64,000 nucleotides of DNA, taken from contig NZ_JAQNDM010000002.1 of assembly GCF_028368975.1 (NCBI RefSeq), forward strand, positions 1,550,001-1,614,000, read 5' to 3'. The DNA comes from Stigmatella ashevillena. GTDB lineage: Bacteria > Myxococcota > Myxococcia > Myxococcales > Myxococcaceae. The notes below the pieces were generated by a model. The model made no database searches. It had not been told where the DNA came from and saw nothing but the letters and a program-made list of their open reading frames with translations. Shown here in pieces: positions 13,062 to 28,068 of this stretch (within the stretch, counting starts at the first letter, position 1; every line of letters begins with the position of its first letter). The position numbers and the translations under genes are program-made.

Positions 13062-16000
13062 TCATGAAGGCTGGCCGCCTCCGGACCGCTCCCCCGCGAG
13101 TGCTTCCGCGTAGGCGGTGGCCACCTTCAGGAAGCGCCCTCCTCGCACGCCCGTGAGGTACTGGCGCTTCATGGCTCGGGTGGCCCCCACGTAGAACATG
13201 GCCCGGCGGATACGCTCGTTCTCTCGGGGCGTCCGCTGACGGGCCCCCTCCATCCAGGCCTCGATGGCGTCCAGCGCCTCCAGGCCCGCGAAGAAGACGA
13301 TGGGGCACTCGTGGCCCTTGCACGAAAAGACCGTGGTGGCCCGAACATGGTCCACGCCGCTGACGCGGAAGTCCCCCACATCCCGGCCCCCCTTCCCACC
13401 ATAGGCCTCCGCGGGAACCCCCGCCCGGACCAAGGCCTCCGTGAAGGACGCGGGCATGACGGGGGCCACCACCAGGATGTCCCCTGGCAGGACGCCCTCC
13501 TCACGCACCAGCCGCGCCACCTCCTGGGCCACCCAGCGGGCCTCGCCGGTGCTGGAGGCAAAACCGCGCACCTGCGGCAGCACGCCCCCCCGCTCGGTGG
13601 ACTGCACCCGAAAGACGCCTTCCAGCGTCTCCTCTGGCAGCCAAAGCAATCTCTCGCGGGCCAGCTCATGGACCTTCATGTACTCGCGCATGCCGGGCTC
13701 ACTCACGCCGTGCTGGCGCAGCGGGTCCAGCACGACGTTGAAGGCCATGTCGAGGATGTCCCGCGTGGCGCGGAACGTCTCCTTCAACACCCGGGTGCGC
13801 CCCCGGAAGGACAGACCCTCTGGCAACTGTTCCTTCAGCGCGTCGATGGGAATCTGCCCATAGACATTCTGTGAGTCGTCCATGAAGAGCTGGAAGCAGC
13901 GCACCTCCCGCCCATCGGGCAGCACCTGCGGCCGTACCAGCCCGTGGAGTCTGGCCAGTGCCTTCGCATCCATGTCCTGCGCCTCATCCACGAAGACCGC
14001 ATCGAAGCTGCCAGGCTCGGGCTGACGCAGCGCTCCCGCGTGACGCACCGTCACCTGGGCTCGCAGCGCGCGAACCCGCTCCGCACCCGCCCGAAGGATC
14101 ACGGCCTCGGTGAGCAGCTTGTCCACCAGGGGCGCCAGAGACCGGTTGAAGAAGGACACGAGCACCCGCGCCTGAGGACGTTCGAGCAGGTAGCGCACCA
14201 CCCAGTGCGCCAACACATACGTCTTGCCGCTGCCAGCCACGCCCCGCACCAGGTGGTGGCCATCGTCGAAGCGCCGCTCGAAGAGGGATACCTGCTCTTG
14301 CGTGAAGAGGGGCTGAGAGGTCCTCGCCCCCTCGATTTCTCCTCCCAAGCCCACAGGCACGAGCGGAGGGGTCGGCGCGGGGGGCGGCCGAGGCTGCGAG
14401 GCCAGCAGCTCCAGGCGCGGCGTCTCGCCGGGATGCACGCGCACGCGAGGCAACAGCGAGAGGAACCGCGCGGGCACCGGTGAGGCACGGGCTTCCGCAC
14501 GCGAGGCCAGGACGAGCAGGTAATCCCGCGCGCGGCTGGCGGCCACATTGAGCAGGGGGATGAGCGTGTGCGGAGGGAAAGGACGGCCCCCCGCCACCGT
14601 GTCCACCATCACCACGTCATACTGGGTGCCCTGCTGCCGGTGAATGGTGGAGGCGCTGAAGACGTCCCCGCGCAGACCCGCAGCCCCTCCCAACCGGCGC
14701 AGCAGGGCCGCCTGCGCGCGGTAAGGCGTCACGCACAGCACGGTCAGGCCCGCACGGACCGCTTGCCGGGCCAGGGAGACGGCCAGCCCGGCGGACAGCT
14801 CACGCTGATAACCCGAGCCCGTCTCCCCTCGGCCATGGGTGAGGTGGCGGGCATCACGGCTCAGGCCGTCCAGCACCACCCACGCAGCGCGCGAGGGAAA
14901 TGCCGACACCGGGGCGGGCTTCTCTGCCCGCGCGAGGACGATCTCGCCATTCTCCAGCGCACCGCCGTAGCAGAAGTGGCTCACCACCTGGGCAATGTCC
15001 GGGTGCATGCGGTGCTGGGTCCGCAGCAGCAGCACATCCGGCCGCGCCGCGTCCTTCACCGCGTCCTCCAGGTGCGAGAGGCCACTGGCCCGCAGCCAGC
15101 GCTGCGTGTCCTTGCCGACACCCTCCGCCACGCGGCTGACCGGGCCGATCTGCTTGGGATCTCCCGCCAGCGTCACGTGCCGGGCGAGCGGGGCCAGCAA
15201 AGCCGTGGCCGCCCGCGTCACCATGCCGGCCTCATCCACCACCAGCCTCGCGAAGGTCTCCTCCCCGTCCAGCTCCGCCACCAGCTTCAAGGCCCGGTGC
15301 ACGGTGAGCACCATGAGCGGGCTGTCCCCCTTCTCTGCCTCACGCAGGGTGGGATCCTTCACCCGCCCGCGCAGGGTGCGCAGCTCGGCCTGCATCCGGG
15401 CCAGCTCCTGCGCAGGGCCGCTCCGGGCACGCTCCCGCGTCAGCTCAAGCTCGCGCTCCTGAATGGTGTTGCGCAGCTTGTGGGCCTTCGCCTCTTCCAG
15501 CGCCACGGTGGGCAGCTTCGCGAGTGCCTCGTTCGCGCCCGTGCCTCCCCGGAAGATGCTGCGGGCCAGCGGACGCAAGGGGATGGGCTCACGCTCCAGC
15601 AGGGCACTGACGCGCATCACCAGTTCGTCCGCGGCCCGGTTGGTGGGGGCCACCGCGAGGATGCGCTCACCGGGATAGGCCCGGAGGGCTTGCGCAATCA
15701 GCCCGGCCACCGCCGTCGTCTTCCCCGTCCCGGGAGGTCCCCAGATGCAGCCCCAGGGCTGACACCACAACCGGTCCACCGGCAGCCGCTCCGAATCCTT
15801 GGGGGACAAGGGCGCGGGAGGCTCCTCACCGCAGGCACGAAGCAGGGCCTGGGCCAGCGCGGGCTGCCGGTTCGCGTACGAAGAGGCCGCCGCGCACAAC
15901 GCCTCCGCGAAGTCATAGGGCCGGTAGCACCAGCGCTCGGCCTTGAGCACGCGGCGGTCCAGATCCTCGCCCGAGTCCGAGGCGGCGAAGACACGCCCCG

Positions 16001-16514
16001 TCTCAAAGTCCAAATGGACGATGTTTCCGGCGAAGACGAGCTCCTCCCCCACGAAGCCCAGCAACGAGCCCCCGGACCAGTCCGGGTCCGCCGCCGGCAC
16101 CGGCACGAGTCCCAGGACCCCAGGCCCGGTCAGCCCCAGCTCCCGCACCTCCTGGAGCCGCTGCGCGCGGTATTGCCCCCGCTCGGCCACCAGTGCTTCC
16201 CGCAGCGCCTCGGGCAGGTACTCAGGAGGAACCCATGCCTCGCGCCGTCGGCCCGTGGACACGGCGGCCTGCATGGCCTCGCGCTCCGCCGGACTGCCCT
16301 CCACGGGCGCGGAGAGGTCTCGGACCGGCGCCTCCTCCCCCTTGGCGGCAGAGCCCCGCGGCCCAGGAGCCGGACGCGGCCATTCACCCCCTGCATCGGG
16401 GTCGTACTCCACGCGGAGCGTGGGCCGGACCTCCCCGGGATGGCTCGAGTCCTCGTGCGTCCTGCGCATCATTCGGAAGCGCGCCACCGTAGGAGAGGCG
16501 TCGATCTCCGTCAA
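13062..16514 (-). CDS. Large protein with two SF1 helicase cores (UPF1/DNA2-like then UvrD-like)
   Basis: 1150 residues. After an uncharacterised, partly disordered N terminus (1-240), a first superfamily 1 core has Walker A GPPGTGKT (259-266), Walker B VVDEAG (Asp427-Glu428) and motif III LAGDPKQIGPVSR, as in UPF1/DNA2/IGHMBP2-type helicases. Its second RecA fold follows (LRTQHRMHPDI, SASTIHRQQGTQYDVVMVDT). After a Pro-rich linker near 700 a second core begins: Walker A GVAGSGKT (758-765), VDEAQD (842-847) and a UvrD-like C-terminal fold (TTVFSCKGHECPIVFFAG, then FYVGATRAM). Both ATPase centres look intact. It probably works in nucleic-acid repair or remodelling. The start at 16514 is TTG; ATG 16472 is an alternative. 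The gene stands alone. Confidence 0.85.
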   Translation of the reverse strand: MTEIDASPTVARFRMMRRTHEDSSHPGEVRPTLRVEYDPDAGGEWPRPAPGPRGSAAKGEEAPVRDLSAPVEGSPAEREAMQAAVSTGRRREAWVPPEYLPEALREALVAERGQYRAQRLQEVRELGLTGPGVLGLVPVPAADPDWSGGSLLGFVGEELVFAGNIVHLDFETGRVFAASDSGEDLDRRVLKAERWCYRPYDFAEALCAAASSYANRQPALAQALLRACGEEPPAPLSPKDSERLPVDRLWCQPWGCIWGPPGTGKTTAVAGLIAQALRAYPGERILAVAPTNRAADELVMRVSALLEREPIPLRPLARSIFRGGTGANEALAKLPTVALEEAKAHKLRNTIQERELELTRERARSGPAQELARMQAELRTLRGRVKDPTLREAEKGDSPLMVLTVHRALKLVAELDGEETFARLVVDEAGMVTRAATALLAPLARHVTLAGDPKQIGPVSRVAEGVGKDTQRWLRASGLSHLEDAVKDAARPDVLLLRTQHRMHPDIAQVVSHFCYGGALENGEIVLARAEKPAPVSAFPSRAAWVVLDGLSRDARHLTHGRGETGSGYQRELSAGLAVSLARQAVRAGLTVLCVTPYRAQAALLRRLGGAAGLRGDVFSASTIHRQQGTQYDVVMVDTVAGGRPFPPHTLIPLLNVAASRARDYLLVLASRAEARASPVPARFLSLLPRVRVHPGETPRLELLASQPRPPPAPTPPLVPVGLGGEIEGARTSQPLFTQEQVSLFERRFDDGHHLVRGVAGSGKTYVLAHWVVRYLLERPQARVLVSFFNRSLAPLVDKLLTEAVILRAGAERVRALRAQVTVRHAGALRQPEPGSFDAVFVDEAQDMDAKALARLHGLVRPQVLPDGREVRCFQLFMDDSQNVYGQIPIDALKEQLPEGLSFRGRTRVLKETFRATRDILDMAFNVVLDPLRQHGVSEPGMREYMKVHELARERLLWLPEETLEGVFRVQSTERGGVLPQVRGFASSTGEARWVAQEVARLVREEGVLPGDILVVAPVMPASFTEALVRAGVPAEAYGGKGGRDVGDFRVSGVDHVRATTVFSCKGHECPIVFFAGLEALDAIEAWMEGARQRTPRENERIRRAMFYVGATRAMKRQYLTGVRGGRFLKVATAYAEALAGERSGGGQPS

Positions 16515-16676: not shown

Positions 16677-17009
16677 TTAACACACCGAGCAGCCCGTACA
16701 GATCAAGACGCCGCCCGAGAGGGAGCAACTGTCGCAGCAAAGATCCTGGGCAGGTGCCTGAAGGTCTTGTCCGGGTGGCACCGTAAAGGGATTCACGTCT
16801 CCAGGCTGAGCGTCGTCGACCTTCACAGAGGAGATGTTGCCAATGGTCTGGTCTCCATCCTTGAGCGAGAAGGTGGAGTCCGCGTTGCGAGTAATCCGGA
16901 CCTTCTCGAAGGTCCGCGCGCCCTGCTGCTCTGCTGCGTCCTCGTTGGAGTTTCCACAACCCGCCAAGCCCACGGCCACTGCCATCGCCAACAGGAAACG
17001 GTTCTTCAT
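16677..17009 (-). CDS. Small lipoprotein with a cysteine-rich C-terminal tail
   Basis: 110 residues from ATG 17009, which is preceded by an AAGGAGAG ribosome site. A lipoprotein signal (LLAMAVAVGLAGC) ends at Cys18. The middle (KVRITRNADSTFSLKDGDQT) looks like a short beta-rich domain. The last 20 residues hold six cysteines in the order C-C-x2-C-x7-C-x2-C-x2-C, ending with Cys at the C terminus, in an otherwise Ser/Gly/Val-rich stretch. Such a tail could bind metal or form disulphides outside the cell. I do not recognise the family. It lies downstream of the lysyl-oxidase lipoprotein, but the terminator at 17144-17183 separates the two. Confidence 0.7.
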   Translation of the reverse strand: MKNRFLLAMAVAVGLAGCGNSNEDAAEQQGARTFEKVRITRNADSTFSLKDGDQTIGNISSVKVDDAQPGDVNPFTVPPGQDLQAPAQDLCCDSCSLSGGVLICTGCSVC

Positions 17010-17143
17010 GGGGTCTCTCCTTTGCTTGGCCCGTGTGACAGGCCGTGAATCAAAGTCGCCCCTGTGTGGGCGCCGTGCCACCCGGGAGGGAAGAGACCGC
17101 TTGCTCATCGGCCAGCGGAGAGCATCGAGAACGGCATGAGGGG

Positions 17144-17183
17144 AATAAAAGAGCCCCCACGCCGTGCGAAGCACGTGGGGGCT
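17144..17183 (-). terminator. Rho-independent terminator after the lysyl-oxidase lipoprotein gene
   Basis: Read on the minus strand, AGCCCCCACG and CGTGGGGGCT (17174-17183 and 17152-17161) form a 10-base stem with a 12-base loop, followed by CTTTTATT. It lies 26 bases after the stop of the lysyl-oxidase gene. Confidence 0.8.
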
Positions 17184-17208
17184 GGGGTTCAGCGGCGGGG
17201 GCCGTCCG

Positions 17209-19206
17209 CTACCGCGCTGGCAGGGTCACCGGAACGCTGGAGGTGTTGTTGTCGAGCGTCGTCTCCTGGAAGGCCCGGGAGGGGTTGAGGGTCACCTGGA
17301 GGCGGTAATCTCCGGGGGGCACGTTGGTGATGTCCAACCACTGGCAGTCCAGCGTGTTGCCATACAGGTCGGACCAGCCCCGCTGAATGCCCTGGTCATC
17401 ACACGTGAACTGCTTGGCGCACGGCACGTCCGGCCCGGTGGCGACCCGCTGCGTGTCCTCCATGCAGTAGGCCTGCTTGCGGCCCGCGAGCACCGTGCGG
17501 CCTTCAGCATCCACCAGCGCGTAGGTGGCGAAACCACCGAAGTGGTAGTGGCCGTGGCAAGGCGAGAAGATGAAGAGGTCTGGCCGCTCAGCGGGCGCTG
17601 GCACCGTGAGGGTCGCGCTGCCCTGGTTCACGGCCTCCACGCTGAAGCGCAGGACGTGGCGCTCTCCCGTGCCCTCCACGCACTCCTCCACCCTCGCGCA
17701 GGAGTTCTCGGTGACGAAGATGGTATCGAAGAGGATCTCATCCCGGAGCCGGGCCTCGTCGACGATCAGGTCCGGCAGCTGCGCGCTGACGGGATGGCAC
17801 GCGCAGTCCGTGCCGCAGAACTCCGACGCACCACAGGACGGCGTGCAGGAGGGACGCAGGTGGTCGCACCCCGCGAAGGTCTCACACGTCCCGGTGGCGG
17901 GCACGCACAGTTCGGCATTGGGACAGAAGCCACACTGCCCTCCGCACCCGTTGTCTCCACATTCCTTGCCATCACAGTTGGGGATGCAGGGGTTGGGCAG
18001 GCACCGCCCCTTCACGCACGACTCGTTCCCCGTGCACACGCCGCAGTTCCCGCCACATCCATCGCTTCCGCCGCAGTAAAGGCCGTCGCACTTCGGCACG
18101 CAGCCGTTGGCGGCGAAGCGCGTGCTCAGCGTGAAGGGGCCCGCCTGGGTGGAGTCGAATCCATCGACAATGAGGTAATAGGTTCCCGGCTCGAGCGACA
18201 CGGAGATGCGGGAGCCATAATCACCCGGCGGCGAGGAATCATCGCTGCACGCCACCGTGCGCGACGCCGTGTTGTCGAGACAGTCGGCGGCGCCATCCGC
18301 GCCTCGCTGCTTGCGCAGGTGGAGCACCGTGTCATAGCCGGAGACGCGCGCCTCCAAGCCCAGCTTCTCCGTCGTGGTGAAGGTGTACACCGCCTCCACC
18401 GCGGTGCTGGTGCGGTTGCAGGAGGGAATGAGCTGGTGGAACCCGTTGGAGGTATCTCCCTGGATGACGTGGTCGCCGACCAGAGGCGCTCCAGTGGCCA
18501 CGAGCGGCAAGGGATTGCGGCACGTGCCCGCCTGAACCTCGGGCCTGCACTCGAAGACGCCCTGAGCACACGCCTGTCCCGCTGGGCAGGTGCCGCACAG
18601 TCCGCCGCAGCCGTCTTCTCCACACAGCTTGCCGGAGCAGTCCGGGTTGCAGGTCGCCATGCAGACCGCACACGCGCCGATGGGAATGTGCTGACACGTG
18701 CGTTTGTCCGGATCGCAGACGTCCTCGGTACATGCCGCTCCGTCGTCGCAGGGAGGAGGACCTGACACGCAGCGCCCATTGGCCAGGCGCTCCTCACCAT
18801 CACAGAACTCACCGTTGGAGCACGTCACCTCCACGTCGGTCTCGAAGGCCCGCTCGAAGGCAGCGCCCTTGCGCTGAGGGGCCCACCCCAGCTTGTGCAG
18901 CCCGGGCTGGGCTGGCGCGGAGACATTGCCCCGGAAGGTGGCCACCTGGCCGGGCTTCACCTGCTCCGTGAGCACGAGCGGCCCTCCGCTCCAGCCCTGC
19001 TGCGCCTGGAGAGCGAGCTTCACCTGGTCTGGCTTCCACGTCGCGGAGCCTTCGTTCTTCATCCGCAGTTGCACCTCGCCGGGCCCGTCCGGGGGCACAT
19101 GCAGCGCCGTCCCGGAGCTCTCCCAGGCCGCGACATAGGTTGCATCGTCATCACAGCCCGTCACCAGAAACACGAGCCCCGCCCAGAACATCAAAACTTT
19201 TCGCAT
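17209..19206 (-). CDS. Lipoprotein with C-terminal lysyl oxidase domain
   Basis: 665 residues from ATG 19206. A lipoprotein signal ends at Cys18 (VFLVTGC). An Ig-like domain (NEGSATWKPDQ) follows, then a Cys-rich block, a PPC-like beta domain (about 225-345), and tandem Cys-rich repeats of the form CDGKECGDNGCGGQCG. The last 210 residues match lysyl oxidase. The copper site is CHGHYHF with His551, His553 and His555. Lys577 in GRKQAYCMEDT and Tyr615 in YGNTLDCQWLDIT occupy the positions of the two residues that form the lysine tyrosylquinone cofactor in animal LOX. The ending PPGDYRLQVTLNP is also typical. The enzyme would oxidise lysine amino groups on cell-surface or matrix proteins. The gene lies 97 bases after the lipoprotein at 19304-20101 and ends in a clear terminator. 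Confidence 0.88.
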   Translation of the reverse strand: MRKVLMFWAGLVFLVTGCDDDATYVAAWESSGTALHVPPDGPGEVQLRMKNEGSATWKPDQVKLALQAQQGWSGGPLVLTEQVKPGQVATFRGNVSAPAQPGLHKLGWAPQRKGAAFERAFETDVEVTCSNGEFCDGEERLANGRCVSGPPPCDDGAACTEDVCDPDKRTCQHIPIGACAVCMATCNPDCSGKLCGEDGCGGLCGTCPAGQACAQGVFECRPEVQAGTCRNPLPLVATGAPLVGDHVIQGDTSNGFHQLIPSCNRTSTAVEAVYTFTTTEKLGLEARVSGYDTVLHLRKQRGADGAADCLDNTASRTVACSDDSSPPGDYGSRISVSLEPGTYYLIVDGFDSTQAGPFTLSTRFAANGCVPKCDGLYCGGSDGCGGNCGVCTGNESCVKGRCLPNPCIPNCDGKECGDNGCGGQCGFCPNAELCVPATGTCETFAGCDHLRPSCTPSCGASEFCGTDCACHPVSAQLPDLIVDEARLRDEILFDTIFVTENSCARVEECVEGTGERHVLRFSVEAVNQGSATLTVPAPAERPDLFIFSPCHGHYHFGGFATYALVDAEGRTVLAGRKQAYCMEDTQRVATGPDVPCAKQFTCDDQGIQRGWSDLYGNTLDCQWLDITNVPPGDYRLQVTLNPSRAFQETTLDNNTSSVPVTLPAR

Positions 19207-19303: not shown

Positions 19304-20101
19304 CTACCGGGCAGCGGCCTCGGTCCCCGCCCCGGAGTCCGAGCCTGGACGCCGGTCGATCTCCTCGGAAGGATAGGCCTTGGCCGCGTCGAGGTACTTC
19401 CGCGGTTGGATGCGGCGGCGATCCCGGCGGCTGATCCATTCCGGGGTGACGAGGGTGGGCTCCCCCTCGGGAAGCTGCTCCACCATGAGCCCATCACAGA
19501 ACAGCCACTCGATGCGGCCATTGGGATACTGGCGCGCGAAGTACAGATCGCCACTGCCCACCTGGGCGTTCGCCGAGCACCAGGTCTGCTTCGCCTGGGC
19601 TTCTCGGGCTGGCGCTTCCACCTCCCACTTCTGCTGGGCTTGCTGCAACTCGGCGGCTGCCAAGGCGCCAGAGGCCCCCTCCAACCGGGCTCTCGCGTCC
19701 TTCACCAGCGCCGCGCCCCGCCTCGCAATGTCGGGAAAGGCCCCTGTCCGGTGGAAGCCGCACGTGGGCAGCGCCCGGAGGTTCCGGTCATGAATCTCCA
19801 GCACGGGCCCCAGCGTCCGGGAGGCCTCTTCCAGCAAGGCCAGGTGCTCGGTGTGCGCGAGCGCCTCCGGCGAGTGAGCGGACTCCGTGTTGGAGAGAAA
19901 CCGGGACAGCACCCCGTTGATCGAACTGAGCTCGTCCGTCAGCCAGCGCGGCTCCGCCTCGCACAGGGCCTTTGCGCCTCCATAGTCCCGGTACTCCGCG
20001 CGCCCCATCCCCAGCACGTATTGCTGCAAGGGAGGCACTTGCTTCGACGCACAGGCACTGAGAAGGACGGACAGGCTCACGAAGACGGAATGGACACGCA
20101 T
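19304..20101 (-). CDS. Lipoprotein of unknown function
   Basis: 265 residues. The start MRVHSVFVSLSVLLSAC is a lipoprotein signal with the modified Cys17. The mature protein is largely helical (TESAHSPEALAHTEHLALLE; then RARLEGASGALAAAELQQAQ), followed by a segment with W, Y and R residues (GDLYFARQYPNGRIEWLFC) that may be a small beta domain, and a charged tail. No catalytic motif is visible and I do not recognise the family. It precedes the lysyl-oxidase lipoprotein on the same strand with a 97-base gap and may share its transcript. Confidence 0.65.
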   Translation of the reverse strand: MRVHSVFVSLSVLLSACASKQVPPLQQYVLGMGRAEYRDYGGAKALCEAEPRWLTDELSSINGVLSRFLSNTESAHSPEALAHTEHLALLEEASRTLGPVLEIHDRNLRALPTCGFHRTGAFPDIARRGAALVKDARARLEGASGALAAAELQQAQQKWEVEAPAREAQAKQTWCSANAQVGSGDLYFARQYPNGRIEWLFCDGLMVEQLPEGEPTLVTPEWISRRDRRRIQPRKYLDAAKAYPSEEIDRRPGSDSGAGTEAAAR

Positions 20102-20228: not shown

Positions 20229-21779
20229 ATGAAGCCCCCGCCCTTCCCCTCGCTGAGCCCGTCGTTTCTTCCCCCTGGATCACGGGTAGGGCCCTGGCGC
20301 GTGGTGGGCTGGGGCGGCCGGGGCGCCAACGGCGCCGTCTACCAGGCGCTCCGGGTGGGCCGGGAGGCGGCGGGCCCCGTGGCCCTCAAGCTGGCCATGG
20401 CGCCCGGAGACCCGCGCTTCGCTCGCGAGGGCGCCCTGCTCTCCCGCCTTCGCCACCCGAACATCCCCGCGCTGGAAGGCCGGGGGACCTGGAAACACTC
20501 CCGGGGAACTGCCCCCTACGTCGCCATGCAGTGGGTGGACGGAGTGCCCCTCTATGCCTGGGCCGCCATGCGCAACCCCTCCTCGCGGCAGGTCTTCCAG
20601 CTTCTGGCGCAGGTGGCACGGGCCCTGGAAGTGACCCATGCCCTGCCGGGCGTCCACCGCGACGTGAAGGGGAGCAACGTGCTGGTACGCGGCAGCGACA
20701 GCCGAGCGTTCCTGACGGACTTCAGCTCGGGGCACTTCGCAGGCGCCAGCCCCCTGACCTGGCAGGCGATGCCTCCCTGCACCCCGGCCTACCGCAGTCC
20801 CCAAGCGTGCCGGTTCGCCGCGCTCCGTCCTTCCTCCCACGCCCAGTACACCGCGACCCCGGCAGATGACGTGTTCGCCCTGGGCGTGACAGCCTACCGG
20901 CTTGTGACGGACGAATACCCTCCCCCCGTAGAACCCGGACTGGACGCGAAGGGCCTCTGGAAGGATGGCGGCCCTGGACCGCTGCCCCCCGAGGTCCTCA
21001 ATCCCCGGGTGGAGTCCCGGCTCAACACCCTCATCTTGCGGATGCTCTCGGTGCGTCCTGAAGCGCGTGGCACCGCGGGCGAGTTGGCCCAAGCCTTGGA
21101 GCAAGCGGCGGAGCAGTCAGACCCGAAGGGAGATCAACCCCTCTTCGCGTGGGAAAACCTGCCCTCCTCTCGATGGTCCCTGATGGACTCCGCAGAAGCA
21201 GACCTGCTCGGCCACCGACCACGGTACAGAAGCCGGGCGCGCGTCCTGGAGACTCAGGCGCGCGATGCCGCCGAGCAGACCGTCGCGAACCGGTTGAACG
21301 CGGAGAGGCTTGCTCATTCCAGGGCCGCGACCCAGCCTGATGTCCTTTCCTCGCCCTCCCTTCGATGGGCACGAGGGCTCCTGCTGTCCGCCGGCGTTCT
21401 CCTGCTGGTTTTCGGCCCGGAAAGCGGGGGGCCCGTCCCTTCAGAGCCGTTCCAGGAGATGCCTCCGCGAAGCGAAGCCCAGGACGCTGGCACCGATGCC
21501 GGGACGGTGGGCCTCGCGGACGTCGCGGCTCAGCCCGCCCACAATGCCGAAGGCACCATTGCAGCACACACGGCCATCAGCATCGACCTGCCCAAGGGGC
21601 CCCTCAAGGGTCAAGTCCGGCCTCCCTGCGCGAAGGGTCAGCTGGACCTCCGCGGTGGATGTTGGGCAGCGCTTAAAGCCCAGCCCCCGGAGTGTCCGCT
21701 CTACTCCTACGAATGGAATGGCGGATGCTACATGCCCATCGTCGCCACCCCACGTCCGGACACTTCGGACAAGCCCTAG
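20229..21779 (+). CDS. Membrane-bound Ser/Thr protein kinase with DFS in place of DFG
   Basis: 516 residues. The kinase domain (about 18-295) has the glycine loop GGRGANGAVY (29-38), the ATP lysine Lys54 in VALK, Glu67, the catalytic loop HRDVKGSN (143-150) and the metal site read as DFS (164-166) instead of DFG. A single membrane helix near residues 381-397 (ARGLLLSAGVLLLVFG) separates it from a 120-residue outer part with several Cys and a W-G-G-C-Y motif. All catalytic residues are present, so an active kinase is likely. Myxobacterial kinases of this kind act in development and stress signalling; the target cannot be inferred. Confidence 0.88.
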   Translation: MKPPPFPSLSPSFLPPGSRVGPWRVVGWGGRGANGAVYQALRVGREAAGPVALKLAMAPGDPRFAREGALLSRLRHPNIPALEGRGTWKHSRGTAPYVAMQWVDGVPLYAWAAMRNPSSRQVFQLLAQVARALEVTHALPGVHRDVKGSNVLVRGSDSRAFLTDFSSGHFAGASPLTWQAMPPCTPAYRSPQACRFAALRPSSHAQYTATPADDVFALGVTAYRLVTDEYPPPVEPGLDAKGLWKDGGPGPLPPEVLNPRVESRLNTLILRMLSVRPEARGTAGELAQALEQAAEQSDPKGDQPLFAWENLPSSRWSLMDSAEADLLGHRPRYRSRARVLETQARDAAEQTVANRLNAERLAHSRAATQPDVLSSPSLRWARGLLLSAGVLLLVFGPESGGPVPSEPFQEMPPRSEAQDAGTDAGTVGLADVAAQPAHNAEGTIAAHTAISIDLPKGPLKGQVRPPCAKGQLDLRGGCWAALKAQPPECPLYSYEWNGGCYMPIVATPRPDTSDKP

Positions 21780-22526: not shown

Positions 22527-23891
22527 ATGCTGCCGTGGAGGGTGCTCTGGAAGGCTGAAGCGCTGTTCCTGGCGTTGCTCGTGGGGTGCGCCAGCATCCC
22601 TCGGGGCCCCCTCGTGGAGGACACCGGCCAGGGCAAAGCCGTCGTCCACGTTCCCCGCGCGGCTGACCTGCAACCGGTGGAACTGGAGGAAGCGGAGTTC
22701 CAGCAGGCGGTGAGGCGCCTTGCGCGCGAGGTGCGGCTGACAGGCACGCCACGCCAGATGGCGGAGAAGGCGTTTCAGATGGACCCGCAGAGCGGTAATT
22801 ACCTCTACCTGCTGCGGGATAAGAAGCTGGTGCCAACGGGGACTGGCGCTCCTTGGGACGGCACGTTGACCCAAGAGGATCTTGCGCTGGCGGAACGCTA
22901 TCGGCTCTGGTGCCAGAGCGCCTACAACTTCTATGGAGACTGTCTCGGAGGCGCGCTGATGGGTGGGCGCTATCTGGACATGCAAGGCCGTTACGTCTGG
23001 GCGCTGGCGATGAGCAAGAGCCCGGTGCTGGGCGAGATGAAGAAGGCGCTCGGAGAGATGGTGGAGTTCCGCGCGCTCATCAGCGGGGCCCTGTGGACGT
23101 TGGGTTCCATGCTGCTGATCCTGCTCCTCAATCCCGTGGCTCCGGCGCTGGTGGCGGCGTTGGGCGTCGGGATGCTCCTGTATGTGGGCTATGACACGCT
23201 CCACAACCTCGTGACGGGCTGGGCTGAGTTGACGGAGGCGGCGAAGGCCGCAACCACCTTCGAGGAGATCCGCGAGGCAGGCGAGCGCTTCGGCAGGATT
23301 CTTGGACAAGAGTCCGCGCGCGCGTTCGCCCTGCTGCTGGTGGCGGCCATTGGCTCGACGGCGCAACGGTTCGCAGCAAAGGTGCCGACGCTGCCCGGCT
23401 CGGCGCAGGTGGCCATGCAGGCTGAGGGTGAGGCCGGAATCTGGCTGCCCGCGCTGGGGACGGTGGAGGAGATCGCGGTCAGTGCCGAGAGCGTCAGCAT
23501 CTCGCTTCCCGCAAACGCGGTGGCCATGGCGGCGCGGCCCAGTGGCGGCAAGGGCCCCTGCATCGAGACGCACCACATCGCCACCATTTGCAACGACAAG
23601 TCCACCGCGCGAGGGGGCACGTGGTCGCCGAGATTCCGGGCAATCTTCGCCAGAGCTGGAATGACGCTGGATGACCCGGCGAACAAGTTGCCCCTCCCGG
23701 GGCACTACGGACCGCACCCAGAGCGGTATCACCAACTCGTCTACAAGGAACTGCTCGACGGAACGGTGACCTGTCGTAGCGTCGTCGAGTGCCGCGAGGG
23801 GCTGACACGGGCCCTCAAGGCTCTTGCGAAGGAAATCGCCACTCCGGGAACAGAACTCAACCAACTCGTCACCCGGCAGCCACCGCGCTAA
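22527..23891 (+). CDS. Lipoprotein toxin with C-terminal AHH nuclease domain (SitA-like)
   Basis: 454 residues. The N terminus (ALFLALLVGCAS) is a lipoprotein signal with Cys21. A helical middle contains two hydrophobic segments (ISGALWTLGSMLLILLLNP and VAALGVGMLLYVG, about 190-230). The last 110 residues match the AHH branch of the HNH/endonuclease VII toxin fold: the paired His349-His350 (ETHHIATICNDK), a tryptophan-Ser segment, and GHYGPHPERYHQLVYKELL with His393 and His397. Lipoprotein targeting plus a toxic nuclease tip is the design of the SitA toxins of Myxococcus, which pass to sibling cells by TraAB outer-membrane exchange. The Imm11-like gene starts 9 bases after the stop. Exact delivery route is inferred; DNA as target is likely by family. 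Confidence 0.8.
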   Translation: MLPWRVLWKAEALFLALLVGCASIPRGPLVEDTGQGKAVVHVPRAADLQPVELEEAEFQQAVRRLAREVRLTGTPRQMAEKAFQMDPQSGNYLYLLRDKKLVPTGTGAPWDGTLTQEDLALAERYRLWCQSAYNFYGDCLGGALMGGRYLDMQGRYVWALAMSKSPVLGEMKKALGEMVEFRALISGALWTLGSMLLILLLNPVAPALVAALGVGMLLYVGYDTLHNLVTGWAELTEAAKAATTFEEIREAGERFGRILGQESARAFALLLVAAIGSTAQRFAAKVPTLPGSAQVAMQAEGEAGIWLPALGTVEEIAVSAESVSISLPANAVAMAARPSGGKGPCIETHHIATICNDKSTARGGTWSPRFRAIFARAGMTLDDPANKLPLPGHYGPHPERYHQLVYKELLDGTVTCRSVVECREGLTRALKALAKEIATPGTELNQLVTRQPPR

Positions 23892-23900
23892 AGGGAGCCC

Positions 23901-24464
23901 ATGCCCAAGCGTTTCTTTGAGCTAGCCGACGATGTAAACGCCCCGCACCGCTGGCACTTGGCCACGCCGACGACCCGTCACGGCCAGAAGGTGGACGAGG
24001 CGCTATTCATGCGCGGGGTACCCGTCCACGATCAGGGGCGATTGAGAGTCCCTGCCGAGATCGCTGGCAAGGCGCTGGACTTCACTCAAGCGGGCATTGG
24101 CATCCCGGTGGTCCATGTCAGGGTCGCGTCCATGTTTTCGGAGCTCGCCCCGGATGACGTTCAACTGATTCCCGTGGACGTGGAGAGCCAACCGGATCAG
24201 TACCTCCTCCTCGTGACCACACGTCTCATCCGCTGCATCGACGAAACAGCGTCACGGATCCGGCTCTGGACCCATGAAGATGGAGCCCCGCACATGGTCG
24301 GTCGCTATGCCTCCGTCCGTGACATGCGCATCGACAAACCCAAGGCGGGAAACGCCAAGGTGTTCCGTTGCGAGGGATGGATAGGTCCGCTGATCGTCTC
24401 TGGAGAGATCAAGGACGCCCTGGAGCGCATGAGCGCCACAGGCACGAGATTCGAGGAGGTCTAA
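23901..24464 (+). CDS. Imm11 (DUF1629)-like immunity protein
   Basis: 187 residues, no signal peptide, so cytoplasmic. The sequence pattern (MPKRFFELADDVNAPHRWHL at the start; QYLLLVTTRLIRCIDE in the middle; IDKPKAGNAKVFRCEGWIG; a C-terminal SGEIKDALERMSATG helix) fits the Imm11/DUF1629 immunity family that neutralises polymorphic toxins. It begins 9 bases after the AHH toxin stop on the same strand, preceded by AGGGAG, as expected for a cognate antidote co-expressed with the toxin. Binding to the AHH nuclease is inferred from position and family. Confidence 0.8.
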   Translation: MPKRFFELADDVNAPHRWHLATPTTRHGQKVDEALFMRGVPVHDQGRLRVPAEIAGKALDFTQAGIGIPVVHVRVASMFSELAPDDVQLIPVDVESQPDQYLLLVTTRLIRCIDETASRIRLWTHEDGAPHMVGRYASVRDMRIDKPKAGNAKVFRCEGWIGPLIVSGEIKDALERMSATGTRFEEV

Positions 24465-25056: not shown

Positions 25057-26220
25057 TCAGTACCACTGCTCCTGGCCACTGACCCACGTGGCGAGCACCT
25101 TGAAGTCCGGCCGGAGCAGCGTGAGGTCCGCGCGATAGCCCGAGGCCAGACGGCCCACGTACTCGTCCAACCCCAAGAAGAACGCCGGGTAGAGCGAGGC
25201 CATGCGCAGGCTCTCCTCAAGGGACAGTCCGAGAAGCTGAACGCAGTTGCGGACGGATGTCGCCATGTCGATGTCGGCGCCCGCCAACGTCCCGGTCTCC
25301 GTCACCAGCCGCCCATCCCGGCGGAAGATCTTGTTCCCATACAACGTGAACGAGTCCGCATCGGTGCCCACAGGGGGCATGGCGTCGGTGACCAGAAACA
25401 CCTTGCCAGACGGCTTGCTCTTCATGAGCAGGCGCAGCAGCGCCGGGTGGACATGAATGCCATCCACGATGATGCCGCACCAAGCCGAGTCGGAATCCAT
25501 CGCGGCCAGCACAGGGCCCGGCTGGCGGTTGCTCACCGGAGGCATGGCATTGAACAGGTGGGTGAACCCCCGGATACCGGCCTCCACCGCGTCCCGCGTC
25601 CGCTCATAGGAAGCCGCCGTGTGGCCCGCGGCCACCACCACGCCCGCCGAGGCAAAGCGGCGGATGGCGGCGTCCCCGACCTGCTCTGGCGCCAACGTCA
25701 GCATCAAGCGGCCGCCCCGGCCCGCCAGCCGCCCGGACAATGCCGCCAGGTACTCGACATCCGAGGCATCGGGCGTCCGGATGAAACGGGGATCATGCAC
25801 TCCGGGACGATCACCGCCGATGAAGGGGCCCTCCAGGTGGATGCCCAGCACACCACTGCCGGGCCGGGCCAGCGTCTCGACGACGGCCTCGCAGGCTCGC
25901 TGCATCGAGGCTTTCGCGTCCGTAATGAAGGTGGGCAGCAAGCCGGTGGTTCCCGTGCGCCGGGCGGCCGCGGCAATGGCTCGCGCGGCCTCGGGCGTGG
26001 GCGTGTCGTTGAACAGCACGCCCCCGGCCCCATTGACCTGGGCATCGATGAAACCGGGCGCCAGCACCGCTTCCTCGGGCAACCGCACCACCTCGGCGCC
26101 CGCGGGCACCGCCGAGGCCGGCATCACCGCGGAGATGCGCGCCCCATCGAGCACCAGGACGTGCGAATCGAGGATGCGCTCCCCGGTGAAGAGCCTCGCC
26201 CCCTTCAAGACCCGTTTCAT
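25057..26220 (-). CDS. nagA: N-acetylglucosamine-6-phosphate deacetylase
   Basis: 387 residues, a usual NagA length. It removes acetate from GlcNAc-6-phosphate to give glucosamine-6-phosphate in the cytoplasm. Amidohydrolase motifs are in order: APGFIDAQVNGAGG near residue 50, GVLGIHLEGPF with the metal-ligand glutamate, VAAGHTAASYE, GFTHLFNAMPPVSNRQPG, IIVDGIHVHP, and the catalytic aspartate in LVTDAMPPVGT. The start ATG 26220 overlaps the stop of the SIS deaminase gene (TAATG), so translation is coupled. It is the last gene of the regulator-deaminase-deacetylase operon. The next gene to the left, beyond 25056, is only a remnant. Confidence 0.95.
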   Translation of the reverse strand: MKRVLKGARLFTGERILDSHVLVLDGARISAVMPASAVPAGAEVVRLPEEAVLAPGFIDAQVNGAGGVLFNDTPTPEAARAIAAAARRTGTTGLLPTFITDAKASMQRACEAVVETLARPGSGVLGIHLEGPFIGGDRPGVHDPRFIRTPDASDVEYLAALSGRLAGRGGRLMLTLAPEQVGDAAIRRFASAGVVVAAGHTAASYERTRDAVEAGIRGFTHLFNAMPPVSNRQPGPVLAAMDSDSAWCGIIVDGIHVHPALLRLLMKSKPSGKVFLVTDAMPPVGTDADSFTLYGNKIFRRDGRLVTETGTLAGADIDMATSVRNCVQLLGLSLEESLRMASLYPAFFLGLDEYVGRLASGYRADLTLLRPDFKVLATWVSGQEQWY

Positions 26221-27281
26221 TACACCGTCTCCGTGACTTTGCGGAGGTGAGCAGGGGCGTCCGGATCCAACCGCCGCGCCGTCGCCAACCGATGCACCGC
26301 CATGTAGAAGCTCTGGACCTGGCACAGCGGAGCGATCGCGTTCGGCACCCCGGACACCGTGGGCAGAAGCTCAGCCCCGGGAACCTCGAGCACCGAGCGG
26401 ACCTCCGCCCCCAGCTCCACCATCCGCCGCACCACGCTCCGGGTTCCCTCCGCGGAGCCATCTTCCTGACCCAGCGCCAGCACGGGGAAGCCCGGTCCCA
26501 CGAGGGCCAACGGACCGTGGCTCACTTCGGCGGTGCTGAAGGCTTCGGCATGCAACCGGCAGGTTTCCTTGAACTTCAGCGCCATCTCGAGCGCTGCCCC
26601 CAGGCCACTGCCGCGCCCGAGCACGAACAGGCTCCGGGCATCAACCAGCCGTGAGAGCCCCGGCCACCAGTCGAGCGCGCGCGCCGCCTCCAAGGCCTGC
26701 GGCAACCGGGAGACCGCCTCGTGCAGCCCCGCATCCTGCGTCCAGTGGGCCGCCAATTGGAGGAACGCGAGCCCCGAGAGAATGTAGGACTTCGTGGCGG
26801 CGACGCTGTGCTCAGGACCAGCGCACAGGGGGAAGTTGACGTCGCAGAGGCTCGACAGGGGCGACCCCTCGCTGTTGACGAAGCCGACGGTCAGGGCGCC
26901 CCCCGCGCGCGCCGCTTCCGTCAGCCGCAGGAGGTCCGGACTGCGGCCCGACTGCGAGACGGCGATGAAGAGGCTGTCCTTCAGCTCCAGGTTCGGCGTG
27001 TTGTAGACCGAGGCCACGCTCGGCCCCATCGAGGCCACGGCGCGCCCCAGGTTCGTCTCGAGCAGATACTTGCCATAGCTGGCCGCGTGGTCGGAGCTGC
27101 CCCGGGCACAGGTGACGATGAACGAAGGAGGCCGCTGGCGCAGCCGGGCGCCCAACTCGGCGAAGCCACTGGCGCACTCCCGGATCTGCCGGAGCGCGGC
27201 ATCCGCCGCCTGCGCAGCCTCCCGGGCCATGGCGGGAACCGGGGGAACAACGGGACTCACGACGAGATCAGGAGTGCTCAT
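26220..27281 (-). CDS. SIS-type glucosamine-6-phosphate deaminase (NagB-II)
   Basis: 353 residues with two SIS sugar-isomerase domains and no glutaminase domain. Motifs TCARGSSDHAASYGKYLLE and VSQSGRSPDLLRLTEAA bind the sugar phosphate, as in the isomerase half of GlmS; AATKSY also matches. Between nagA and the GntR regulator it best fits NagB-II, which turns glucosamine-6-phosphate into fructose-6-phosphate and ammonia and replaces classical NagB in several proteobacteria. The gene begins 4 bases after the regulator stop and overlaps the nagA start. A sugar isomerase of the AgaS type is a less likely reading. Confidence 0.88.
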   Translation of the reverse strand: MSTPDLVVSPVVPPVPAMAREAAQAADAALRQIRECASGFAELGARLRQRPPSFIVTCARGSSDHAASYGKYLLETNLGRAVASMGPSVASVYNTPNLELKDSLFIAVSQSGRSPDLLRLTEAARAGGALTVGFVNSEGSPLSSLCDVNFPLCAGPEHSVAATKSYILSGLAFLQLAAHWTQDAGLHEAVSRLPQALEAARALDWWPGLSRLVDARSLFVLGRGSGLGAALEMALKFKETCRLHAEAFSTAEVSHGPLALVGPGFPVLALGQEDGSAEGTRSVVRRMVELGAEVRSVLEVPGAELLPTVSGVPNAIAPLCQVQSFYMAVHRLATARRLDPDAPAHLRKVTETV

Positions 27282-27285
27282 CGGC

Positions 27286-28068
27286 TCACCTCACAGGAAT
27301 GGCCGACCCGGCCAGATTCAGTTCAACGATGAAATCGTATGAGTCCCCCCGGTACTGCGACCGGACGAACTCCAAGGGAGTGCCATCCTCGAGCATGGTG
27401 CGGCGCTCAATATAAAGCGCCGCCGCGCCTTCCCCCACGCCGAGCTGAGCGGCCTGTTCAGCCGAGAGCTGAATGGCCGACAGCCGCTGCAAGGCCCGGA
27501 AGGGCGTGAAGCCCCGGCGCCGCAACGTCTCATAGAGCGACCCCTGAACTTCACCCGGCTCGGGCAAGAAACGGGTCGGCACCACCGCCAGTTCCAACGC
27601 CATGGCGATGCTGTTGGCCGTTCGCAGGCGCTGCAACCGGCTCACCATGGCCCCGGGGCTGATTCCCAGGGCGAGCGTCTCCTCGGGAGTCGCCACCGCC
27701 ACCGTGCGGCTCAGCCACACGGACCCCGCAGCCAGCCCCCGAGAGCCCATGTCCTCGGAGAAGCCCGTCAGGGTGGACAGGCGCTGCTCCACGTAGGGAG
27801 AGCGATTCACGAAGGTGCCCGCCCCTTGGCGCTGCTGCAGGAGCCCCTCGTCCAGCAGCTCCTTCAGGGCCTTGCGCACCGTGACCCGGGAGACGCCAAA
27901 TCGCTCCGCCAGCTCTCGCTCTCCCGGCAGTGCATCCCGGTGGCCCAGCTTGCCGCTGACGATCTGGCTCCGCAGGTACCTCGCGAGCTGAAGATAGAGC
28001 GGCAGCGGCAGCTCGCTCGACAGCGCATCCCCGTCGAAGGAAGCGGCTGCGCTCTGGTGGCTCGACAT
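27286..28068 (-). CDS. GntR/HutC-family regulator of amino-sugar use (NagR/YvoA type)
   Basis: 260 residues. Residues about 20-85 form a winged helix of GntR type (ERFGVSRVTVRKALKELLDE, with LLQQRQGAGTFVN as the wing). The remainder is a UTRA ligand-binding domain (ALYIERRTMLEDGTPLEFVR; then YRGDSYDFIVEL), the HutC subfamily to which NagR, YvoA and DasR belong. Their ligands are phosphorylated amino sugars such as glucosamine-6-phosphate or GlcNAc-6-phosphate. It is the first gene of the nag operon and divergent from murQ. The shared AT-rich region carries two GGTAT/ATACC box pairs, one near each start, so it probably represses both directions until ligand binds. Confidence 0.9.
   Translation of the reverse strand: MSSHQSAAASFDGDALSSELPLPLYLQLARYLRSQIVSGKLGHRDALPGERELAERFGVSRVTVRKALKELLDEGLLQQRQGAGTFVNRSPYVEQRLSTLTGFSEDMGSRGLAAGSVWLSRTVAVATPEETLALGISPGAMVSRLQRLRTANSIAMALELAVVPTRFLPEPGEVQGSLYETLRRRGFTPFRALQRLSAIQLSAEQAAQLGVGEGAAALYIERRTMLEDGTPLEFVRSQYRGDSYDFIVELNLAGSAIPVR

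Follow-up and report, generated by a model that had tools for sequence, protein, structure and literature searches.

A lysyl oxidase domain at the C-terminus of a modular predicted lipoprotein of Stigmatella ashevillena and related myxobacteria

The animal relative of the protein described here is a collagen-cross-linking enzyme, Stigmatella is a social soil bacterium, and HyaS of Streptomyces is known as a bacterial LOX-like aggregation factor. Lysyl oxidases (LOX) of bacteria and archaea were surveyed in 2015, and that survey describes a widely conserved His core and Lys/Tyr pair and a simple architecture in all but three prokaryotic members (PMC4448552). A 2018 alignment revealed that the lysine, the tyrosine and the copper histidines other than the first are conserved in LOX of Stigmatella aurantiaca DW4/3-1 and Plesiocystis pacifica; its Table 1 and the legend of its Fig. 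8 confine the comparison to the catalytic domain and give neither architecture nor function for the S. aurantiaca protein (PMC6508830). The sole biochemically studied prokaryotic LOX, HTU-LOX of the archaeon Haloterrigena turkmenica, showed BAPN-sensitive activity once refolded with copper and oxidised lysine-containing polypeptides, polylysine, glycine, taurine, aminoglycosides and polymyxin; it is described as a promiscuous enzyme that is cryptic in its host, and its authors propose that it supplies nitrogen or once served in resistance (PMC6452851). The same report mentions deltaproteobacterial LOX as well as a LOX of Sorangium whose C-terminal part is Cys-rich. As a sequence finding, the gene presented here is therefore ordinary, since bacterial LOX, those of Stigmatella included, have already been published. 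In the open-access literature, we found no lysyl oxidase paper under Myxococcus or Stigmatella (PMC6508830 spells the latter "Stigmatelia") and no description of the architecture Ig/Cys-rich/PPC-like/Cys-rich/LOX.

The window analysed in this study comprises 64,000 nucleotides of Stigmatella ashevillena. Positions 17209-19206 correspond exactly, from start codon to stop codon, to a frame of 665 aa on the minus strand, with the following features:

17209..19206, minus strand: whole LOX gene (P0001), 665 aa; ATG at 19206 (MRKVLMFW...), GTG/ATG choice resolved to ATG; stop at 17209
19153..19206, minus strand: predicted signal peptide and lipobox V-T-G before C18, residues 1-18, recognised by eye and present in relatives
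18826..19134, minus strand: Ig-like domain of the NBR1 (FW) type, residues 25-127, from Pfam and Foldseek; strands in the model, pLDDT mostly 69-91
18520..18822, minus strand: first Cys-rich stretch, residues 129-229, with a CGEDGCGGLCGTC-type repeat; Cys columns invariant among 14 relatives
18109..18519, minus strand: beta domain, PPC-like/DVUA0089-like, residues 230-366; both matches below curated cut-offs, strands in the model
17794..18102, minus strand: second Cys-rich stretch, residues 369-471, with a further two CGGxCGxC repeats and CGTDCxCH at its end
17218..17775, minus strand: lysyl oxidase catalytic domain, residues 478-663 (Pfam match 504-657)
17539..17559, minus strand: putative copper site CHGHYHF, residues 550-556 (H551, H553, H555), aligned to CHRHYH of LOXL2
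17476..17478, minus strand: K577, candidate quinone-cofactor lysine, K653 of LOXL2 by alignment
17362..17364, minus strand: Y615, candidate quinone-cofactor tyrosine, Y689 of LOXL2 by alignment
17144..17183, minus strand: terminator-like hairpin directly past the LOX stop, seen by eye; 10-pair stem, 12-base loop and T-rich tail

By eye, the stretch AGGGGG was found 6-11 bases upstream of the ATG at 19206, and a terminator scan, which found 4 sites versus 1.2 expected in shuffles, placed a shorter stem (17171-17155) inside the hairpin. A plus-strand frame of 533 aa (17164-18765) overlaps the LOX frame, and antisense overlapping frames of this kind are common in high-GC DNA. That this frame should be the real gene, and the minus-strand stretch no gene, is hardly credible, since Pfam, PDB and fold matches, a lipobox, dN/dS values and same-frame orthologs all belong to the minus-strand frame. 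Thus, the minus-strand frame is the gene and the plus-strand frame over it is not. In regard to selection, Nei-Gojobori comparisons of the LOX gene with seven orthologs resulted in dN/dS values of 0.07-0.29 for the LOX part (7/7 comparisons), 0.09-0.22 for the Cys/PPC part and 0.20-0.77 for the Ig part, so that all three regions were well below 1 and the LOX part was below the Ig part in each of the seven. The LOX part is under strong purifying selection.

The preliminary description of this DNA had proposed a lysyl oxidase at the end of a modular lipoprotein, giving no strand, and named a PF01186 search as a check. This search matched residues 504-657 with an E-value of 1.9e-31 and a score of 109.8 bits, the curated cut-off being 20.4, and, together with the fold and the intact catalytic residues, supports the proposal. 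Human LOXL2 (5ze3) was also matched in a sequence search of the PDB (E 7.4e-26). LOX-profile matches were collected from 126 loci and, after five short ones had been set aside, gave 111 distinct domains including that of the window, 107 of which carried all five catalytic residues (three His, Lys and Tyr) intact. Among the other four, three domains lacking His3, Lys and Tyr are extra N-terminal copies in proteins that also hold an intact copy, and one (L118) reads E-H-R at the three His positions and keeps Lys and Tyr. Removal of these four led to an alignment of 107 domains (A2), down to 36% identical to the query, in which the invariance of His3 follows from the selection, and in which Lys and Tyr were observed to be invariant (107/107), as were D584, D613, C621, W623, D625 and Y634.

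An AlphaFold2 model of residues 455-665, built from A2, reached a mean pLDDT of 91 and a pTM of 0.83. Foldseek ranked 5ze3 first (E 8.7e-16, TM 0.79 by query length), and VIA-align superposed 183 residues of the model on the same entry at 1.9 A and Z 22.4, compared with Z 8.4 for the second-ranked entry; the LOX fold, HxHxH, Lys and Tyr are all common to LOXL2 and the window protein. The residue numbers given earlier for CHGHYHF (550-556), K577, Y615 and the YGNTLDCQWLDIT block (residues 615-627) proved right, and the Lys-to-Tyr spacing is 38 residues versus 36 in LOXL2. In contrast, the Lys577-Tyr615 distance in a model, which had been put forward as a test, is invalid as such and not decisive, because the equivalent pair Lys653-Tyr689 lies 16.6 A apart in the LOXL2 precursor structure 5ZE3 (PMC9694262).

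Compared to LOXL2, the window protein revealed three replacements: Ser548 for the first copper His (LOXL2 His623), so that the fourth His is absent, Arg576 for His652, and Trp611 for the Cys just before the cofactor Tyr. The first-His column held S, D, A, E, C or G in every aligned row with a letter there. According to PMC4448552, the first His is missing from bacterial, fungal and amoebozoan LOX generally and so defines the animal group rather than the LOX family. The ten conserved Cys and five disulfides of animal LOX were not found, as residues 478-665 contain 7 Cys; for myxobacterial LOX, six of the ten animal Cys were described as retained (PMC6508830). The pre-Tyr Cys column was aromatic in 105/107 A2 domains (W 95, Y 6, F 4, with H 1 and M 1 besides), and since this is so although C621 is invariant, the animal disulfide of the pre-Tyr loop is not kept as such. 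In LOXL2, the three His are essential for LTQ formation and His623 and His652 helpful, mutation of either of the latter leaving less than 50% LTQ (PMC9694262). Ser548 and Arg576 would thus speak slightly against the protein being fully active in the way of the animal enzymes.

A catalytically dead LOX fold, serving as a binding protein or metal sponge, would fit with bacterial members lacking these two active-site His of the human enzyme and with the degenerate LOX copies present in one relative; it is nevertheless improbable, given that His3, Lys and Tyr are kept in 107/111 domains at identities to the query down to 36%, that purifying selection is strong, and that an archaeal relative is active (PMC6452851). 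The degenerate copies belong to G128, a metagenome-assembled member of the Myxococcaceae, in which three proteins (L003/L126, L045/L085, L083) carry a degenerate LOX directly before an intact one. LOX cores show a likeness to CARDB (3idu, Z 8.4, borderline by the aligner's own note), and one tandem relative matched CARDB with 26.0 bits against a cut-off of 22.7; given this likeness, the degenerate copy of G128 may be a binding module. Altogether, PF01186, the LOXL2 fold, the intact residues in 107/111 domains, dN/dS, the presence with the same architecture in all seven genomes of the genus group, the lipobox seen by eye and the archaeal activity (PMC6452851) argue for a lipid-anchored LOX-family amine oxidase, and we regard it as very likely, judging cofactor, copper and activity by the family, that the protein acts as an amine oxidase. 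What we describe is an intact, selected LOX member in an architecture for which no description was found in the open-access literature.

This architecture consists of a lipoprotein signal, an NBR1-like Ig domain, a Cys-rich stretch, a PPC-like beta domain, a second Cys-rich stretch and the C-terminal LOX domain. The Ig domain, which is absent from the domain list of the preliminary description, matched PF16158 (N_BRCA1_IG) below threshold in the window protein (21.2 bits, cut-off 28) and in 9/14 full-length relatives at E <= 0.01 (best 1.4e-9), while all 14 matched PF01186. Foldseek related it to human NBR1 (4ole, E 4.4e-6), and the PDB sequence search returned the NBR1-like ILRUN for the N-terminal part at an E near 1, where another, unrelated chain also appeared. 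The full-length model, built from 14 sequences, had a pLDDT of 65 and a pTM of 0.46, its domain arrangement not being interpretable and its LOX part poor; we drew on it only for the Ig at the N-terminus and for the occurrence of strands, and LOX was taken from the domain model. As for the modules named earlier, the Cys-rich repeats were borne out by a total of 51 Cys over the 665 residues, with 44 in the first 479, and by Cys columns invariant among 14 relatives. The PPC-like domain held as a beta domain and failed as a Pfam assignment, since PF04151 reached 19.2 bits against a cut-off of 25.9 (E <= 0.01 in 5/14 relatives, best 0.0014); the sole NCBIfam match of the LOX protein, DVUA0089, was likewise sub-threshold. 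LOXL2/3/4 also have Cys-rich modules before a C-terminal LOX, identified as SRCR in PMC4448552, whereas the Cys-rich modules of the window protein gave no SRCR match in Pfam. HTU-LOX is set apart by the short hydrophobic N-terminal part and the propeptide-like segment of its description (PMC6452851).

In regard to export, the precursor reads, by eye, MRKVLMFWAGLVFLVTG followed by CDDDATY, with Asp at +2 and Tyr at +7 of the mature form, and a lipobox was seen by eye in several relatives as well. The LOX protein is thus probably a Sec-exported, lipid-anchored, extracytoplasmic lipoprotein. Asp at +2 is a retention signal in E. coli. In Myxococcus xanthus, matrix lipoproteins tend to carry Ala at +7 (7/10) and inner-membrane lipoproteins Lys at +2 (PMC3222651). 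The window protein carries neither signal, the rule coming from another genus; this scheme would leave the outer membrane, a weak indication. The earlier term "outer-envelope protein" is fair; a matrix location would go further than these signals do. Surface location, read by eye from these signals, appears reasonably probable.

The genome of the window harbored one LOX, and the same architecture was identified in 7/7 genomes of the genus group. PF01186 exceeded its cut-off in 62/145 genomes of the same order, in 71/195 genomes of a phylum sample and in 0/14 control genomes. The order count, the 2015 survey (PMC4448552) and the S. aurantiaca homologue of the 2018 alignment (PMC6508830) show that a bacterial LOX is not unusual in itself, and in this respect the preliminary description was overstated. 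We distinguished type A (Ig/Cys/PPC/Cys + LOX) from type B (FG-GAP + LOX), and the best 30 loci of the order search comprised 9 of type A, 19 of type B (called by eye, two loci being Pfam-tested) and 2 others. Among the best 80 of 342 confirmed candidate stretches from named genomes, type A was found in Hyalangium versicolor, Pyxidicoccus fallax, four Polyangium genomes and two metagenome bins. Full-length identity of type-A relatives to the window protein ranged from 94 to 53%, the former value belonging to the full-length ortholog of G078, which we take to be Stigmatella aurantiaca DW4/3-1. The homologue of this strain in the 2018 table (PMC6508830) and the window gene are very probably one gene in two sister species.

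Type B proteins of the Myxococcaceae share a lipoprotein-like start, a C-terminal LOX and intact catalytic residues with the window protein, whereas FG-GAP beta-propeller-type repeats replace Ig/Cys/PPC, and in a LOX tree (quick method) types A and B formed separate clades. The type B loci L012-L030, L043 and L046, with integrin-like FG-GAP propeller repeats before LOX, represent a second LOX lineage, and in the g6 group the two LOX genes are often arranged as a tandem with a distance of about 2.1 kb. Sorangium cellulosum LOX (L065, L068, L073, L080) also has a Cys-rich part and, in all four loci, a lipobox-like start, but there this part (157-160 residues after the CQW block) lies at the C-terminus instead of the N-terminus. 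Three further loci, L062, L117 (titled Klebsiella pneumoniae MAG) and L122 (titled Bifidobacterium breve MAG), group with deltaproteobacterial/proteobacterial bins, and the organism names in their titles look wrong. In a full-length tree, Polyangium was placed nearer to the Stigmatella/Hyalangium group than Pyxidicoccus was, and forcing the nine Myxococcaceae sequences together was rejected with a p-AU of 0.002, for a constraint group named after viewing the first tree and with two long branches involved. That the fused gene was transferred as a whole from one myxobacterial class to another is thus suggested and not established.

The loci of relatives were searched with eight query proteins, LOX and its seven neighbours, at E <= 1e-4. 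The neighbours accompany LOX solely in the three nearest genomes (L035-L037), not all of them even there, and the search of the remaining 11 type-A loci, which represent 10 distinct places, found none of them beside LOX. A lipoprotein at 19304-20101 was absent from the 13 kb fetched around LOX of G078 (L035). Directly behind the LOX gene, 16677-17018 (minus strand) encodes a small lipoprotein with a Cys-dense tail LCCDSCSLSGGVLICTGCSVC and no Pfam or NCBIfam family match above cut-off; as a conserved LOX partner it was rejected, since it stands beside LOX in L035 only and the terminator-like hairpin lies between the two. A Ser/Thr kinase-like protein (20229-21779, plus strand; best NCBIfam matches all sub-cut-off) occurs beside LOX in the three nearest relatives. 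The LOX gene looks monocistronic, so that genome context yields no substrate. A collagen-like substrate was dropped as well, because PF01391 is present in 138/145 genomes of the order, including nearly all LOX-negative ones, and so cannot separate LOX-positive from LOX-negative genomes; it also occurs in 3/14 control genomes.

Apart from that, the window encodes a SitA5-family polymorphic toxin (22527-23891, plus strand; NF050093, E 3.4e-88) whose C-terminus is an AHH nuclease (PF14412, E 2.3e-17) and, behind it, an Imm11-family protein (23901-24464, plus strand; PF07791, E 1.7e-12); by these family matches the two are a predicted myxobacterial kin-discrimination toxin/immunity pair. A protein of 1150 aa (13062-16514, minus strand) has two helicase-type parts, AAA_11/AAA_12 in its first half and UvrD/AAA-type in its second. 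Genes for a GntR/UTRA regulator, a SIS-domain protein and a NagA-like amidohydrolase follow one another at 25057-28068 (minus strand), probably forming an amino-sugar operon.

In the mechanism we propose, copper at H551/H553/H555 would let K577 and Y615 form the lysine-tyrosylquinone cofactor, and primary amines would be converted to aldehydes, H2O2 and ammonia. The likeliest amines would be lysine side chains of proteins on the surface of the cell or within the slime/fruiting-body matrix, the aldehydes may form cross-links with adjacent amines, and the Ig, Cys-rich and PPC-like modules may act as anchor, stalk and binding modules placing the enzyme on its substrate. Overall, we read the protein as a Sec-exported, lipid-anchored LOX-family amine oxidase that would cross-link surface or matrix lysines, with a probability of about 0.5. 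Cross-linking as its purpose is a tentative guess from lifestyle and animal analogy, falling just short of an even chance. Counted against matrix cross-linking are Tyr at +7, the lack of a substrate found, neighbours conserved in the three closest relatives only, the replacement of His623 and His652, and the promiscuous, cryptic nature of the archaeal enzyme (PMC6452851).

Some of these points would suit an active but promiscuous surface amine oxidase without a cross-linking job, acting on free amines, amine antibiotics or peptides of prey to gain nitrogen or to detoxify, or supplying H2O2 for competition or predation. No conserved matrix partner gene stands beside LOX, and the one prokaryotic LOX with biochemical data takes small amines, antibiotics and polylysine (PMC6452851). 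Scavenging of small amines is hard to square with a conserved binding/stalk part that spans about 440 residues, includes dozens of invariant Cys and suggests a localised macromolecular target, and we consider such an oxidase a serious possibility on the lower side of even odds. Matrix cross-linking, by analogy to the animal enzymes, is plausible and stays our best guess by a small margin.

In its widest form, the cross-linking reading would make the protein of Stigmatella and its relatives a lipid-anchored LOXL2-like enzyme that has a Cys-rich stalk independent of the animal SRCR and cross-links lysines of the surface or fruiting-body matrix, a bacterial counterpart of animal matrix maturation with LOX recruited onto different delivery modules (Ig/Cys/PPC versus FG-GAP); this form we hold to be unlikely. 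If active, the enzyme would be one of few entry points to a pre-animal role of LOX. In social bacteria with multicellular fruiting bodies, a LOX that is intact and under selection is retained together with conserved binding modules, which raises the question of whether LOX-type matrix cross-linking may be older than, or parallel to, animal collagen chemistry.
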